64,000 nt of DNA from Methanomethylovorans sp. PtaU1.Bin093 (GTDB taxonomy: Archaea; Halobacteriota; Methanosarcinia; Methanosarcinales; Methanosarcinaceae): contig NZ_MVQX01000013.1 of the NCBI RefSeq assembly GCF_002067275.1, positions 1 to 64,000 of the forward strand, written 5' to 3'. Positions 7,512 through 14,171 of the stretch are shown here, piece by piece. The notes beneath the pieces were generated by a model, which was given only the letters and a program-made list of their open reading frames with translations, was not told the origin of the DNA and made no database searches. How positions within the stretch are numbered: the stretch's first letter is position 1; each line of letters starts with the position of its first letter. The position numbers were made by a program, and so were the translations under genes.

Positions 7512-8468
7512 ATGGTTCATCATTCAATGGAAGAAAGTCTTCAGTGTCCTATTAACCAGGCCAGGATCACCGCCGGCATGAGCGTGGACGAACTGATACA
7601 TGCGCTGGATGGCTGTGCTTTCGGAGCAGGCCGGATAGCCGATGCAGTAGATATCTATCATGAGATGTTAAGCAACAAGAGCACCAGTTTCTTCGGACTT
7701 GCCGGAGCTATGGTGCCAGCAGGCATGCGAGCCATCGTAGCCGACCTCATCAGGGACGGGTACATTGATGTACTTGTCACCACAGGAGCGAATATGGTGC
7801 ACGAGGTAGTGGAATCCATGGGTCTGCACCATTACAAAGGTACAGAGCAAACCGATGATCTGGAACTCAAGCATCAGGAGATCAACCGCATTTACGATGT
7901 GTTCCTGCCCGAACATCATTTCACGGATCTTGAAGAGAAGATGCAGTCCATATTCTCTGATATAGGGGACAGGACCATATCCATCAGGGAATTCATGACC
8001 CATATCGGCAATAACATCGATGATAAGAATTCCATATTACGCACTGCCGCAGACATGAACGTGCCTGTGTACTGTCCTGCCATACAGGATTCCATGATCG
8101 GGCTGCAAGCTTGGCTGTACAAACAGATGCATACTCTTAATGTAGATGCATTCGCTGATATGAGGGAGATCATCGATATCTGCTATGAAGCAAAGGACCC
8201 GGGTGCATTGCTGATCGGCGGTGGAGTTCCCAAGAACTACATTTTCCAGTCCATGCTCGTGACCCATCAGGAATTCGAATATGCTATACAGCTTACTATG
8301 GACACTCCCCAGACCGGGGGTTTGAGCGGTGCCACACTTGATGAAGCGCGCTCCTGGGGCAAGGTAAGTGAAAGTGCACGTTCCGTCACGGTCCACTCGG
8401 ATGCGACCATTACTCTGCCTCTGCTTGTGGCAGCTGTAAGGAGCAGGCTGGCTAAGGATAATAAATAA
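7512..8468 (+). CDS. dys: Deoxyhypusine synthase
   Basis: This enzyme uses NAD and spermidine to transfer an aminobutyl group to a lysine of translation factor aIF5A, the first step of hypusine formation. The 318-residue protein shows the family core GAMVPAGMRAIVADLI and TTGANMVHE near residues 70-100. The expected catalytic lysine is K284, in the motif RSWGK near the C-terminus. GGGVPKN and TGGLSGA are also typical. An alternative ATG lies at 7527, and the region upstream of the first ATG has a GAAGGG element. It is followed after 20 bp by pyrF, so the two are probably co-transcribed. Confidence 0.93.
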   Translation: MVHHSMEESLQCPINQARITAGMSVDELIHALDGCAFGAGRIADAVDIYHEMLSNKSTSFFGLAGAMVPAGMRAIVADLIRDGYIDVLVTTGANMVHEVVESMGLHHYKGTEQTDDLELKHQEINRIYDVFLPEHHFTDLEEKMQSIFSDIGDRTISIREFMTHIGNNIDDKNSILRTAADMNVPVYCPAIQDSMIGLQAWLYKQMHTLNVDAFADMREIIDICYEAKDPGALLIGGGVPKNYIFQSMLVTHQEFEYAIQLTMDTPQTGGLSGATLDEARSWGKVSESARSVTVHSDATITLPLLVAAVRSRLAKDNK

Positions 8469-8488: not shown

Positions 8489-9148
8489 TTGATCAAGGAT
8501 ACACGATTGATACTTGCCCTGGATGTTACGGACAGACAGCAGGCGCTTAGAATAGCCCAGAGTGTAAAAGGTCATGTGGATGCCATCAAGATAGGATATC
8601 CTCTTGTCCTGGCAACAAGAAAAGACATCATAGGTGAAATTGCAGAAATGGTGCCTGTGATAGCAGACTTCAAGGTGGCAGACATACCTAATACCGATCG
8701 TCTGATCTGTGAACAGGTGTTCAGGGCAGGAGCAGATGCATTGATAGTGCATGGTTTCACTGGTTATGACAGCCTTAGGATGTGTGTCGAAGTTGCCGAA
8801 GTGCATGGAGCCGATATATATGTTGTTACTGAGATGAGCCATCCCGGAGCCCTTGATTTCATGCAAAGGGTCGCAGAGGACATGGCGCAGATGGCATCAA
8901 ATGCAAAGGTCGCGGGAGTTGTTGCACCGGCTACGCGTCCGGAACGTGTACAGAAGATCCGCAGTATTATCGGAAATGAAATAGCCATTATATCTCCGGG
9001 GGTGGGTGCCCAGGGTGGCAGTGCTGCCGATGCCGTCAAAGCCGGAGCTGACTGGGTAATTGTCGGCAGGAGCATCTATCTGGCCGATGATCCTAAAAAA
9101 GCAGCTATGGAAATCGCAAAAGAGATCAAGGATGCGATCGATCAATAA
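8489..9148 (+). CDS. pyrF: Orotidine 5'-phosphate decarboxylase
   Basis: PyrF converts OMP to UMP, the last step of de novo pyrimidine synthesis. The 219-residue protein has the catalytic signature [10 protein letters not shown] (K and paired Asp residues) and the phosphate-gripper GVGAQGG near the C-terminus, and it has the usual archaeal length. The start is a TTG. An in-frame TAG sits immediately before it, and a GGGAAGTGATG element precedes it, so no earlier start is possible. It lies 20 bp behind dys. Just past its stop is the box C/D guide RNA. The partner genes pyrD and pyrK are 47 kb away in this window. Confidence 0.95.
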
Positions 9149-9156
9149 TGTGTAAC

Positions 9157-9217
9157 GTGTGCCTGTGATGAGCTTGTTTTCTGAACAGTGATGAACCCTA
9201 TGAGTCCTGAGGCACAC
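9157..9217 (+). ncRNA. Box C/D guide sRNA
   Basis: All parts of an archaeal box C/D RNA are in order. Box C is GTGATGA (9165-9171), then a 9-nt spacer, box D' CTGA (9181-9184), a 3-nt linker, box C' GTGATGA (9188-9194), a 12-nt guide (9195-9206) and box D CTGA (9207-9210). A 7-bp terminal stem GTGTGCC/GGCACAC (9157-9163 and 9211-9217) closes it. Such RNAs direct fibrillarin, with L7Ae and Nop5, to 2'-O-methylate a target base paired five positions upstream of box D. The 12-nt spacing of the D guide is canonical; the D' guide is short. The complement of the D guide contains ACUCAUA, matching the anticodon loop of elongator tRNA-Met. It is probably processed from the pyrF transcript. Confidence 0.82.
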
Positions 9218-9224
9218 TTTTTTT
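9157..9224 (+). terminator. Probable 3' end of dys-pyrF transcript
   Basis: The terminal stem of the guide RNA is followed at once by seven T residues (9218-9224). This gives the dys-pyrF-sRNA transcript a natural terminator before the convergent ppx gene at 9230. Confidence 0.5.
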
Positions 9225-9229
9225 AGTGA

Positions 9230-10123
9230 TCATACAAAAGTCTGCTTGTGTTTGCTGTACAGCACGTGGACGATACCATCTGCCAGTCCCATTTGAGGCA
9301 CGAACATCTCAGTAATGCCGCTCCATTTCATCACAGACAGGTATATTTTCGCTGCAGGGACTATCACATCTGCCCTGTCAGGCCTTATACCCAGTTCCGA
9401 TATGCGCTGTTCAATAGGGAATGAACGGATATAAGTATGCAGTTTTTTCAGTTTACCGTATTCAAGAGGCGCCCCTTCATTTGTTTTGGATACACTGAAA
9501 AGAAAATTAATATTTCCTCCGCTTCCCACTGCTGATATTGGATGATAGCGGGAAGAAACATGCTTCACCCATAGTTTCATGTCTTCCCAATCCCTTCGGG
9601 TCACAAGTCCTTCATGTATGCGTATGCTTCCAATATCAAAAGACCGGGATTCCATTATTTTATTGTCATCAAAGATGAGTATTTCAGTGCTTCCGCCTCC
9701 AACATCCACGTACATATGGCATAAATTGTTTTCATTCTCAGCCAGTCTTTCCACATGGTTATAATAAATGATCTCAGCTTCTCTTTTTCCACTAATTATC
9801 GATAGATCAATGCCGCTTTCCCTATTGATAAGGTCAACTATTTCCATGTTGTTGCTGGCCTCACGCATAGCTGAAGTAGCACATGCCATATAGTCCGCAG
9901 GCTCAAAGGCATCCATAAGATACCTGAAACCGATCATGGTCTTAACAAGCTTCTGGACCTTTTCTTCGGATATCCTCTTATGGGGAAAAGCGTCCTCTCC
10001 CAGACGGATAGGCATTCTGAAAAGGGCAACTTTCTCATATACGGGACGAACACTTTCTTCTTCTACCTTTGCGAGCAAAAGCCTCACGGCATTGGAACCT
10101 ACGTCTATGGCAGCGAATTTCAC
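9230..10123 (-). CDS. ppx: Exopolyphosphatase, Ppx/GppA family (N-terminal two domains only)
   Basis: A 297-residue protein that should release phosphate from the ends of polyphosphate chains. It begins with AAIDVGSNAVRLLL (first phosphate loop) and has YVDVGGGSTEIL and SIRIHEG further on, plus the late loop GSGGN. Many bacterial Ppx proteins run to about 500 residues with an HD-type helical domain at the C-terminus. That domain is absent here, but a similar one occurs in the CYTH-HD protein at 17317-18564. Its ATG overlaps the stop of ppk1 by 4 bp (ATGA), so synthesis and degradation enzymes are co-transcribed. Guanosine pentaphosphatase activity is possible in this family but not indicated. 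Confidence 0.88.
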   Translation of the reverse strand: MKFAAIDVGSNAVRLLLAKVEEESVRPVYEKVALFRMPIRLGEDAFPHKRISEEKVQKLVKTMIGFRYLMDAFEPADYMACATSAMREASNNMEIVDLINRESGIDLSIISGKREAEIIYYNHVERLAENENNLCHMYVDVGGGSTEILIFDDNKIMESRSFDIGSIRIHEGLVTRRDWEDMKLWVKHVSSRYHPISAVGSGGNINFLFSVSKTNEGAPLEYGKLKKLHTYIRSFPIEQRISELGIRPDRADVIVPAAKIYLSVMKWSGITEMFVPQMGLADGIVHVLYSKHKQTFV

Positions 10124-12201
10124 TCCATACCACCTTTTCCGGATGCTTTGTTTGAGAACAGTTTGTACAGATCATCCTGCGCACGCCTTATTTTGCTTGA
10201 CCGTTTTCTCTTTACATATTTGTTGTCCTGCTCTTTATTAATAATACGAGCTTTGGTATTATCCGCAAACTGGATCTCCATGAATTGTTTAAGTTCTTCC
10301 TGTATAGATCTGTCGTAAACAGGCACTGCTACTTCCACTCGCCTGTCCAGGTTACGCACCATCCAGTCTGCAGAGGAAATGAAATATTTCTCATCGCCAT
10401 CATTACAGAATATGAACACTCTTGAATGTTCCAGATACTTATCCACTATACTTGTGACCTCTATGTTTTCGCTAAGCCCCTTGACTCCAGGAACCAGAGA
10501 ACATATACCCCTGGTCACCATCCGGACCTTAACGCCTGCCTGGCTCGCTTCATAGAGTTTTTCTATCATCCTGCGGTCCACAAGATTGTTCATCTTCAGG
10601 TACATATAAGCCTGCTTTCCGGCCTTTGAATTCCTTATTTCAGTATTGATCAGTCTGTAGATCTTGTTGCGCATGAAGTGAGGGGCAACGATGAGATGGT
10701 CATAACTTATGTGTTTATATGTATGTTCAAAGAAATCGAAGAGGTCTTTAACTTCTCTGGTTATGGCCTGGTTGGATGTGAGCAATGCATGATCACTATA
10801 AACGTGAGCAGTAGACTCATTAAAATTACCAGTGCCTATGCAGGCGTATGTCACAGGGATATCGTTCTCCATTCTTGTTATTTTACACAGCTTAGCATGC
10901 ACCTTTAGCCCAGGAACTCCGTCAATAATGGTAGCTCCCGCCTCTTCCAGTTTCTGCGTCCAGAAGATATTTGCCATCTCATCGAAACGCGCCTGCAGCT
11001 CGATGACCACTGTTACGGATTTACCGTTCTTCACAGCATTGATGAGGGCATTCACCACATTTGAGTTCTTAGCTACCCTGTAGAGTGTCATCTTAATGGT
11101 AGTGACGTTCGGATCAATGGCCGCTTCTCTTAACAGATCGATCATATGATCGAAAGAATGGTAGGGGTAACAGAGCATTACATCTTTGCTGCGTATTACT
11201 TCCAGAATGCTGCGGTTAACTGGGAGATCGGGATGTCTTATAGGCTTGTTTTTTTCATATAACAGGGAGCTATCACCCACGTCCGGGAAGTTCATGAAAT
11301 CCCGTGCATTGTGGTATCTTCCTCCGGGAACTATATTTTCAAGGTTTTTCATTTTCAGGCCATCAAGTATGATGTTCAGCAGGTCTTCCGGCATTTCCCT
11401 GTCATATACAAATCTCACAGGTTCCCCTCTTTCTCTTTGCTTGAGACCCTCTGAGATCTTTTCAAAAAAACTTTTCATCACATCGTCTTCAATATCGAGT
11501 TCAGCATCCCTTGTAAGTTTGATGGTGTATGCACTTATGGAATCATAGTCAAATATAGAGAAAATGTTCGAGAGGCCGAAACGTATCACATCGTCCAGCA
11601 TTATTATATATTGAGTGCCGGAGTCCGATGGTAACGGAAGAAAACGGGGTAACACATCTGCAGGTACTTCTATCAGGGCGTAGTTGAATTCCTGGGGGTC
11701 CCGGTACTTGTACATTGCAACTGCCAGGTATATTGCCTGATTCTTTAGATAAGGGAATTTTTGAAGTTCCCGGAACATTACAGGTACAAGCCTTGGACGC
11801 ACTTTGGAAATGAAGTATTCCCTTACGAACTCCTGCTGCTGCTGAGTAAGTTCAGTTTCATTGATAATGAATATATTTGCTTTTTGAAGCTCTTTTTCTA
11901 TCTCTGAGAATACCTCATCGAACTTGTCTCTAAGCTGCAATACTCTTTTATGGATAAGTTCCATTGTTTTTTTTGGTGAATCTCCTATCGTTTCACTGGA
12001 TTTCACTCCCGCATCGATCATTCTGTGAACAGTTCCCACCCTCACACTGAAGAATTCATCCTGGTTCGACGAGAAAATGCCCAGGAACTTCAGGCGTTCC
12101 AGTAATGGCAATGAAGGGTCTGCTGCCTCCTGCAATACCCTTTCATTGAAAGAAAGCCAGCTCATCTCACGGTTAACATATTTGACTATTTTATTCACCA
12201 T
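10120..12201 (-). CDS. ppk1: Polyphosphate kinase PPK1
   Basis: PPK1 polymerises the terminal phosphate of ATP into long-chain polyphosphate. The 693-residue protein has the N-terminal SNQDEFFSVRVG segment, the autophosphorylated histidine H435 in KVHAKL, the second conserved histidine H592 in LEHSR, and the ARFDE and TGNFNE motifs of the phospholipase-D-like catalytic domains. Both histidine positions match the numbering I recall for the E. coli enzyme. It is the first gene of a ppk1-ppx operon (4-bp overlap). The 200-bp upstream gap is AT-rich and should hold the promoter. All recognisable key residues are kept, so it is expected to be active. Confidence 0.95.
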   Translation of the reverse strand: MVNKIVKYVNREMSWLSFNERVLQEAADPSLPLLERLKFLGIFSSNQDEFFSVRVGTVHRMIDAGVKSSETIGDSPKKTMELIHKRVLQLRDKFDEVFSEIEKELQKANIFIINETELTQQQQEFVREYFISKVRPRLVPVMFRELQKFPYLKNQAIYLAVAMYKYRDPQEFNYALIEVPADVLPRFLPLPSDSGTQYIIMLDDVIRFGLSNIFSIFDYDSISAYTIKLTRDAELDIEDDVMKSFFEKISEGLKQRERGEPVRFVYDREMPEDLLNIILDGLKMKNLENIVPGGRYHNARDFMNFPDVGDSSLLYEKNKPIRHPDLPVNRSILEVIRSKDVMLCYPYHSFDHMIDLLREAAIDPNVTTIKMTLYRVAKNSNVVNALINAVKNGKSVTVVIELQARFDEMANIFWTQKLEEAGATIIDGVPGLKVHAKLCKITRMENDIPVTYACIGTGNFNESTAHVYSDHALLTSNQAITREVKDLFDFFEHTYKHISYDHLIVAPHFMRNKIYRLINTEIRNSKAGKQAYMYLKMNNLVDRRMIEKLYEASQAGVKVRMVTRGICSLVPGVKGLSENIEVTSIVDKYLEHSRVFIFCNDGDEKYFISSADWMVRNLDRRVEVAVPVYDRSIQEELKQFMEIQFADNTKARIINKEQDNKYVKRKRSSKIRRAQDDLYKLFSNKASGKGGME

Positions 12202-12404
12202 CTAGATCACAATATATAATTTAAATCCCATTTAAATTTTCCAATTACCATATGCTCCACCACGCGAGCACAATTTTCTGGGTTGCAATCCTAAAGGATG
12301 TTTTCACAAAATATTGGTTCCCTTATAATAACATTTTATACTTATTAGCAATAGCTCTACATACATGTATATATTCTCTATACCCTTCTGGATTGAATGC
12401 CGTT

Positions 12405-14171
12405 TCAATTCTGGTATAGTCTGGCTATCACATTTGAGAACCTGACCCCGAAACCCGGGTCCATTACTTTTGCCCATACTTCTGGAAAAGCTTCAAGTAA
12501 TTCAACGACTTCGTTCTTGCGGTATATAAGATAATTTTCAACCCCTGGGTCTGATAACATCATTTTTTCTTCTCCGGCTGTCCTTCCTTCTCCAAAACCC
12601 CATTTCCCGTACTTCAGGTAGTTCTCCAGTAGTTCTATTGCAACAACTGCATCATGAATATCACCAAGATTGTCCTGCAGTGTCTTGAGGTCCTTTACAA
12701 GGCTGTTCGTTTCTTCTCCCAGTACTTCGTCGAAGAATTCCAGAGTATATCTTAAGATCTTCACATCTATGCGCAAAGCATGCAACATCTCAAAGGAAGG
12801 TTCATCCTCGCGTACCAGATCATCGTAGGCCCGCACTTTAGCGAGCTCGTTATACAAAAGAGAAGGGAGCACATCCCTTACTCTGTGGGGCAGGGGTCTG
12901 CCGTCCCGGTCTACCAGAGATTCTTCCCACTTTCCTCCTTTTTCCAGCACTTTTGTGAACTTGAGCTTGAACTTGTCATATTTGGTGCTGTCAAGATGCA
13001 ACAGCATAAGTCCTCTTGCCTTGTCCCTTTCTATCTGAAGATTTCCAGTAAGTTCGTCCAGTTCTGAAGTTCTCTGTCCGGGAAGTGATCCGATATACTC
13101 TTGTATCTTTTCCATGAACACATCCAGATCGCGGACAGCTCCAAGGGACCTGCGCGTAGCTTTTATGTTCCTGAAAACAGGCTTCATTGTATCCATATCC
13201 AGATGACCATTGAATACTTGCAACACAGAACGCATGCGCATGGCTGCGACCCGCATGTCATGCAACTCTTCTATATCCTTGCCCAGCATTGTGCCGCGTT
13301 CATGTTTGAGCATTCTCCCGAAATGGAATCTCAGGATCTTGTGGGCAGCTTCTCTCATGTGGTCGTCTTTTTTTATGTCAGTTCTTTTCATAGACAGGAA
13401 GTTCTTGACATCAATTCCGGCGACCACTCCCCTTTCAATTATATCGGTTGTTGTTGCGGTTTCTTCTATTGTTTCAGGTGGTTCAGGGTTAAGATCTATC
13501 ATTGTTTCCGGGAACGTTGTTTCAGGAACGCTCTCGGTTGCTGTCCCGATTTCACAGGTTTTACCTTTTTCGGTTCCATCCGTAATTATGTCGGCATCAC
13601 AAACAAACATCTCATTTTCATCACATGTGGAACTCCATCCGGAAAATTCGTTTGACGGATGTATCATCTGAGATACCATCATACTGCTAAGGGCTGCAGT
13701 TAATTGTTTTTCTCCGGAAGACATAGTATCTGTACTATTGATGCCTGTGGGTTCGGACATGCAATGGATGGGGTTCGGAACATTCCGGAATTGTTGCAAC
13801 GTGATGCTACATAAAAGCAATAGAATTCCTGCACCATAAGCAAGTATTACATATGCCACTTTAGGATAGAACCAGGCATCAGGATAAAGAAGAATAAAAC
13901 CAAGGATACCTGCAGCGGATAAGATCGAACCGAATGTTAAAAGAAAGCCTGTATCTGGCTTCAGGAGAAAGAGCAGGTTCTGACCCATCAGAATAAGCAG
14001 AATACCTGTTCCCGCAAGCCCCAGGGACAGGACGATCTGGCCGGGTCCGGAAAACCTGTTAATGCTTTCAAAAACTGCATATAAGATCGCTGATGCGATG
14101 CATACCAAGCCTGTAATGATCAGGAAAAGCATGGTTCCCTTAGAATTGGATCTCTTCCCCTCTTTGTCCAT
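12405..14171 (-). CDS. Membrane-anchored CHAD-domain protein
   Basis: A 588-residue protein in two halves. Residues about 14-125 form four hydrophobic segments. After a polar, Thr/Glu-rich linker (about 130-255), residues 265-588 form a CHAD domain, seen from the conserved His/Arg helices (HKILRFHFGRMLKHE, ELHDMRVAAMRMRSVLQVF, LRIDVKILRYTLEFF). CHAD domains bind polyphosphate through these basic helices and are known to target polyphosphate granules. The gene is upstream of ppk1-ppx on the same strand with a 200-bp gap. A role in tethering polyphosphate to the membrane is inference; no catalytic motif is visible. Confidence 0.82.
   Translation of the reverse strand: MDKEGKRSNSKGTMLFLIITGLVCIASAILYAVFESINRFSGPGQIVLSLGLAGTGILLILMGQNLLFLLKPDTGFLLTFGSILSAAGILGFILLYPDAWFYPKVAYVILAYGAGILLLLCSITLQQFRNVPNPIHCMSEPTGINSTDTMSSGEKQLTAALSSMMVSQMIHPSNEFSGWSSTCDENEMFVCDADIITDGTEKGKTCEIGTATESVPETTFPETMIDLNPEPPETIEETATTTDIIERGVVAGIDVKNFLSMKRTDIKKDDHMREAAHKILRFHFGRMLKHERGTMLGKDIEELHDMRVAAMRMRSVLQVFNGHLDMDTMKPVFRNIKATRRSLGAVRDLDVFMEKIQEYIGSLPGQRTSELDELTGNLQIERDKARGLMLLHLDSTKYDKFKLKFTKVLEKGGKWEESLVDRDGRPLPHRVRDVLPSLLYNELAKVRAYDDLVREDEPSFEMLHALRIDVKILRYTLEFFDEVLGEETNSLVKDLKTLQDNLGDIHDAVVAIELLENYLKYGKWGFGEGRTAGEEKMMLSDPGVENYLIYRKNEVVELLEAFPEVWAKVMDPGFGVRFSNVIARLYQN

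Follow-up and report, generated by a model that had tools for sequence, protein, structure and literature searches.

An element of 61 nt lies directly behind pyrF at positions 9157-9217 (+ strand) of the window, the whole 64,000-nucleotide stretch of Methanomethylovorans DNA analysed here. A first-pass annotation had read it as a canonical box C/D sRNA, which raises the questions of whether this is a real guide RNA gene and which RNA it guides. On the sequence evidence, the element is a true guide RNA gene of the archaeal box C/D class. The best explanation of the observations as a whole, which we regard as very probable, is that its product is a guide of the sR-tMet kind, serving the predicted 2'-O-methylation of C34 (Cm34) in pre-tRNA-Met.

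Architecture of the element

The element as a whole is supported by the sequence itself, by covariance model R1 and by retention in relatives. It opens with the 5' arm of a 7-bp terminal stem (GTGTGCC, 9157-9163), which pairs with the 3' arm (GGCACAC, 9211-9217). A single T separates the 5' arm from box C (GTGATGA, 9165-9171). Next come the 9-nt D' guide GCTTGTTTT (9172-9180), box D' (CTGA, 9181-9184), a 3-nt spacer (ACA), box C' (GTGATGA, 9188-9194), the 12-nt D guide ACCCTATGAGTC (9195-9206), which can form 11 bp with pre-tRNA-Met(CAU) at GACTCATA|GGG and whose position 5 before box D faces C34, and box D (CTGA, 9207-9210). All of these features are on the + strand and all four boxes are exact. 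As in archaeal box C/D RNAs generally, boxes C (RUGAUGA) and D (CUGA) lie beside the terminal stem, C' and D' are internal, and the guides measure 12 nt before D and 9 nt before D'.

Direct reading reproduced base for base the boxes, D guide, stem and seven T reported earlier. The T7 run (9218-9224, + strand) is a possible transcript end. However, the description of a stem followed by seven T holds for the window and not for the element at large. The T-run is not a defining feature, because only 9 of 48 distinct loci have five or more consecutive T in the 25 nt past box D.

A search of both strands of the window gives a single match to the strict C-D'-C'-D pattern, and 51.2 Mb of simulated second-order Markov sequence with the composition of the window gives none; a loose version of the pattern finds five matches in the same simulated sequence. 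A chance origin of the four-box layout is excluded for practical purposes, in agreement with the original judgement that chance occurrence was very unlikely.

Conservation and stem covariation

When 40 relatives are searched at the DNA level, the element appears in the genus, in the family and in other families of the order, and the gene is kept across the sampled Methanosarcinaceae and other Halobacteriota families. Parsing yielded 33 copies with all boxes, from 32 genomes and with 32 distinct sequences. Box C reads RTGATGA in all 33, where the parse itself required RTGAYGA. An alignment of 25 sequences (A1) shows no variation in box D, box D' or the D-guide core CCCTATGAG, while the D' guide drifts even inside the genus among the parsed copies.

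The terminal stem evolves as a helix. Paired cells make up 92.6% of the stem, five of its seven pairs show changes on both sides, and 26 cells are changed on both sides, compared with a shuffled mean of 7.5. Shifting the partner strand lowers this covariation signal. Covariance model R1, trained on the relatives plus the window sequence itself, scores the window copy at 79.8 bits.

Two side observations concern copy number and related RNAs. One genome of family f2 carries two sRNA copies about 1.34 kb apart behind a single pyrF (G032:C206, locus L116, at about 864 and 2201 on the - strand); their D guides are identical and their D' guides differ slightly, which points to a duplication. Weak model matches in genomes of families f16, f26 and f27 (L173, L174, L183 and L188) are other C/D-like RNAs with different guides, one of which contains CCGTTGGAGCG and resembles Rfam sR3.

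The D guide matches intron-containing pre-tRNA-Met

The D guide (ACCCUAUGAGUC) forms 11 continuous Watson-Crick pairs with the pre-tRNA-Met(CAU) of the same genome, at GACUCAUA|GGG. The paired target consists of the last 8 nt of the 5' exon (GACUCAUA) and the first 3 nt of the intron (GGG), and the base opposite position 5 before box D is C34, the wobble base of tRNA-Met. The 10-mer ACTCATAGGG is found at four places in this genome: the complement of the sRNA, the pre-tRNA-Met gene (G000:C54:120455-120464) and two non-tRNA sites. ARAGORN calls a tRNA-Met(CAT) with a 36-nt intron at the target site when introns are allowed; with its default setting (introns off) the gene is missed. At some loci ARAGORN gives the label tRNA-Ser(aga); we take this to be the same intron-containing gene with its anticodon wrongly placed.

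This match extends to the relatives. The exon-intron joint reads GACTCATAGGG in 36 of the 37 genomes whose tRNA-Met gene was fetched, the present genome included; the remaining gene is interrupted by a contig end, and its intron still starts with GGG. In a phylum sample, each of the 42 family members carries a single guide and a single tRNA gene of this kind, and reversed control patterns give no matches in the same sample. The duplex has a predicted energy of -19.5 kcal/mol on the precursor, against -10.2 on the spliced tRNA. Coverage of the anticodon loop and the first intron bases, with C34 at position 5, is the pairing of the sR-tMet functional class.

From these pairings, the D guide most likely directs methylation of C34 in elongator tRNA-Met before splicing. 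In our reading of the precursor, pairing of C32-A35 with UGAG near the 3' end of the intron can supply a bulge-helix-bulge with its central helix, so that the guide would cover the 5' strand of the splice site. Methylation should precede splicing because three of the eleven pairs are intronic and because the site is the 5' strand of this putative bulge-helix-bulge.

Some lineages depart from the common pairing. Family f3 has A at guide position 2; this base is mismatched with A31 and leaves nine continuous pairs. The target is invariant within the order, and guide-target covariation is therefore not demonstrable there. Outside this pattern, the tRNA-Met intron begins with ATG rather than GGG in an f16 genome (G083:C1:1411722-1411772) and with ACA in genome G044; a simple pattern search found no C/D guide with a matching change in either. 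In the methanogen-rich family f16, G083 alone was found to combine a related intron with a start other than GGG, and it is a good test case for coevolution of guide and intron.

Relationship to known guide RNAs

Rfam searches at gathering thresholds return no match in the whole 64-kb window, so the element, which had been expected to escape coding-based annotation, escapes this route as well. At relaxed thresholds several Rfam archaeal C/D families match below their cut-offs. The best is RF01126 (sR41), with 43.7 bits and E = 2.5e-9 over 181 bases against a gathering cut-off of 54; RF02163 (sR-tMet) reaches 20.5 bits against a cut-off of 50. With scores under these cut-offs, annotation would overlook the gene. 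For the same reason the window RNA is not assigned to RF01126 or RF02163, and its pairing suggests that it works like them.

The layout of sR41 is common to the window RNA, as is a guide core CCCUAUGAG before box D, which the sR-tMet model shows too. In contrast, the guide flanks and D' guide of sR41 are unlike those of the window RNA. The tRNA-Met guide of Pyrococcus is named sR49 in the literature, a number different from that of Rfam sR41.

The sR-tMet RNA of Haloferax volcanii and other haloarchaea (RF02163) is likewise a free-standing C/D sRNA, with the D guide GCCCUAUGAGU. It targets C34 of the intron-containing elongator pre-tRNA-Met, pairs with intron bases and acts before splicing, all of which is predicted for the window RNA. 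The two differ in that the window RNA has 61 nt, compared with a 72-position model, that its boxes are exact and that a compact spacer of 3 nt separates D' from C'. In Haloferax, Grosjean et al. (2008) described guidance of Cm34 in intron-containing tRNA-Met by a separate C/D sRNA, listed 18 candidate sRNAs, and noted that part of the intron takes part in the pairing and that methylation comes before splicing (PMC2584109). The name sR-tMet is used for the haloarchaeal RNA in a review that refers to Joardar et al. (2011) (PMC4033218).

More distant parallels exist. The pre-tRNA-Trp intron guide (sR50) also serves methylation of C34 in an intron-containing pre-tRNA before splicing (PMC7994747, PMC2584109), but there the intron itself is the guide, whereas the window guide is a separate gene behind pyrF. 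Human SNORD97/SCARNA97 direct Cm34 of elongator tRNA-Met, the same base of the same tRNA, with the same kind of RNP (PMC6601510); this system is eukaryotic and uses two cooperating guides.

Association with pyrF

The pyrF gene, encoding orotidine 5'-phosphate decarboxylase (OMP decarboxylase; 8489-9148, + strand; PF00215, 170.7 bits), ends 8 nt before the sRNA stem and is likely to be its host transcript. Directly upstream of pyrF is a deoxyhypusine synthase gene (7512-8468, + strand; PF01916, 347.8 bits), an order retained in many relatives. On the other side, a polyphosphate gene group on the - strand (9230-14171) converges on the sRNA; by Pfam it encodes a Ppx/GppA phosphatase, a polyphosphate kinase and a CHAD-domain protein. 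Scans for sigma-70 promoters and simple terminators gave no matches; for an archaeon such scans carry little information.

The first-pass annotation had proposed conservation behind pyrF as a check, and pyrF is indeed upstream on the same strand at 43 of 48 distinct intact loci; the 43 include the farther of the two copies in G032. The link is present in families f1, f2, f4, f5, f12, f14, f16 and f27. In f3 (L017, L019, L120 and L121) and f7 (L138-L142), pyrF is absent from the fetched flanks and the guide is retained; in these families the two genes either became separated or were never linked. In 16 genomes of f5, f12, f14 and f16, the TGA stop codon of pyrF is the first TGA of box C (L143-L145, L147, L148, L151, L152, L165, L166, L168-L171, L176, L018 and L126), and consequently the 5' arm of the stem is coding sequence in those genomes. 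Such overlaps are frequent among archaeal C/D genes. According to a review citing Tripp et al. (2017), 25% of archaeal C/D genes overlap a 3' end, box C holds nearly half of the stop codons, and archaeal C/D RNAs mature from longer transcripts (PMC7994747). A limited literature search found no description of a long-lived partnership of the sRNA with pyrF.

Proposed mechanism

The transcript is probably excised from the 3' region of the pyrF mRNA. The terminal stem would then fold the RNA so that a C/D k-turn and an internal C'/D' k-loop form, and these would be expected, as in the family generally, to bind L7Ae, Nop5 and fibrillarin. The genes for fibrillarin (G000:C30:37422-38075, 290.9 bits) and Nop5 (G000:C30:36604-37233, 193.6 bits) adjoin on contig 30 of the same genome. 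Through its D guide, the complex would pair with elongator pre-tRNA-Met(CAU) across the anticodon loop and intron bases 1 to 3, as the complementarity predicts. By the N+5 rule fibrillarin is predicted to 2'-O-methylate the wobble base C34, presumably ahead of splicing.

Alternative explanations

That the element is a C/D-like sequence produced by chance or decay, without function, has a negligible probability, since conservation, stem covariation, an invariant guide and an exact target all contradict it. The identification as a box C/D sRNA gene is instead borne out by boxes kept in dozens of genomes, compensatory changes in the stem, retention behind pyrF in relatives, sub-threshold matches to several Rfam archaeal C/D families, and the fibrillarin and Nop5 genes. 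A dual or rRNA guide, in which the D' guide or both guides methylate 16S or 23S rRNA and pairing with tRNA-Met is only secondary, would suit the rule that most archaeal C/D guides of known target act on rRNA (PMC7994747), and the 9 nt of the D' guide are enough for some pairing. We nevertheless consider this very unlikely. The D guide has no rRNA match, its best scores being mismatched or rich in G-U pairs and differing among species, and neither guide has a consistent partner across six 23S and six 16S regions; since the present assembly has no rRNA genes, it was represented among them by the same-genus genome G005, which carries the same guide. Targets in rRNA were rejected for both guides on these grounds. 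The D' guide varies within the genus and is probably an orphan, judging from these comparisons; a second guide without a target is typical of tRNA-targeting sRNAs (PMC7994747).

The pyrF association invites two further readings. The element might mainly be a structure of the pyrF 3' UTR, either an L7Ae-bound k-turn or a terminator, through which the pyrF transcript is regulated or ended, the guide being a by-product. The long-lived linkage, the pyrF stop codon within box C in 16 genomes and the T7 after the stem in the window are consistent with this, and a role for L7Ae in translational regulation by way of k-turns has been proposed (PMC5539422). However, the D guide is the most conserved part of the element and is not needed for regulation of pyrF, members in f3 and f7 retain the guide with no pyrF in reach, and the T-run is not conserved, which makes such a role highly improbable. 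Alternatively, guide and pyrF could form an old coupled unit in which pyrimidine synthesis is coupled to tRNA-Met maturation, either by excision of the guide from the pyrF transcript or by assembly of C/D proteins over the pyrF stop codon. This idea is a long shot; if true, it would explain why the pairing of guide and pyrF is kept across many Halobacteriota families.

Significance

Methylation of pre-tRNA-Met by a separate C/D guide is already established, and no new mechanism is involved here. The guide kind is known from haloarchaea (Haloferax) and from Pyrococcus, and the window RNA represents it in a methanogen, where it escapes the curated models. The earlier reading is extended here by a predicted target, a probable order of events and an evolutionary setting. 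Curated Rfam thresholds fail to detect the gene. The long-lived linkage to pyrF, with a stop codon in the C box in several lineages, provides a usable case of C/D genes that ride on protein genes and later separate from them. For the sampled Methanosarcinaceae and other Halobacteriota families, an RNA gene that had gone unannotated gains a predicted function.
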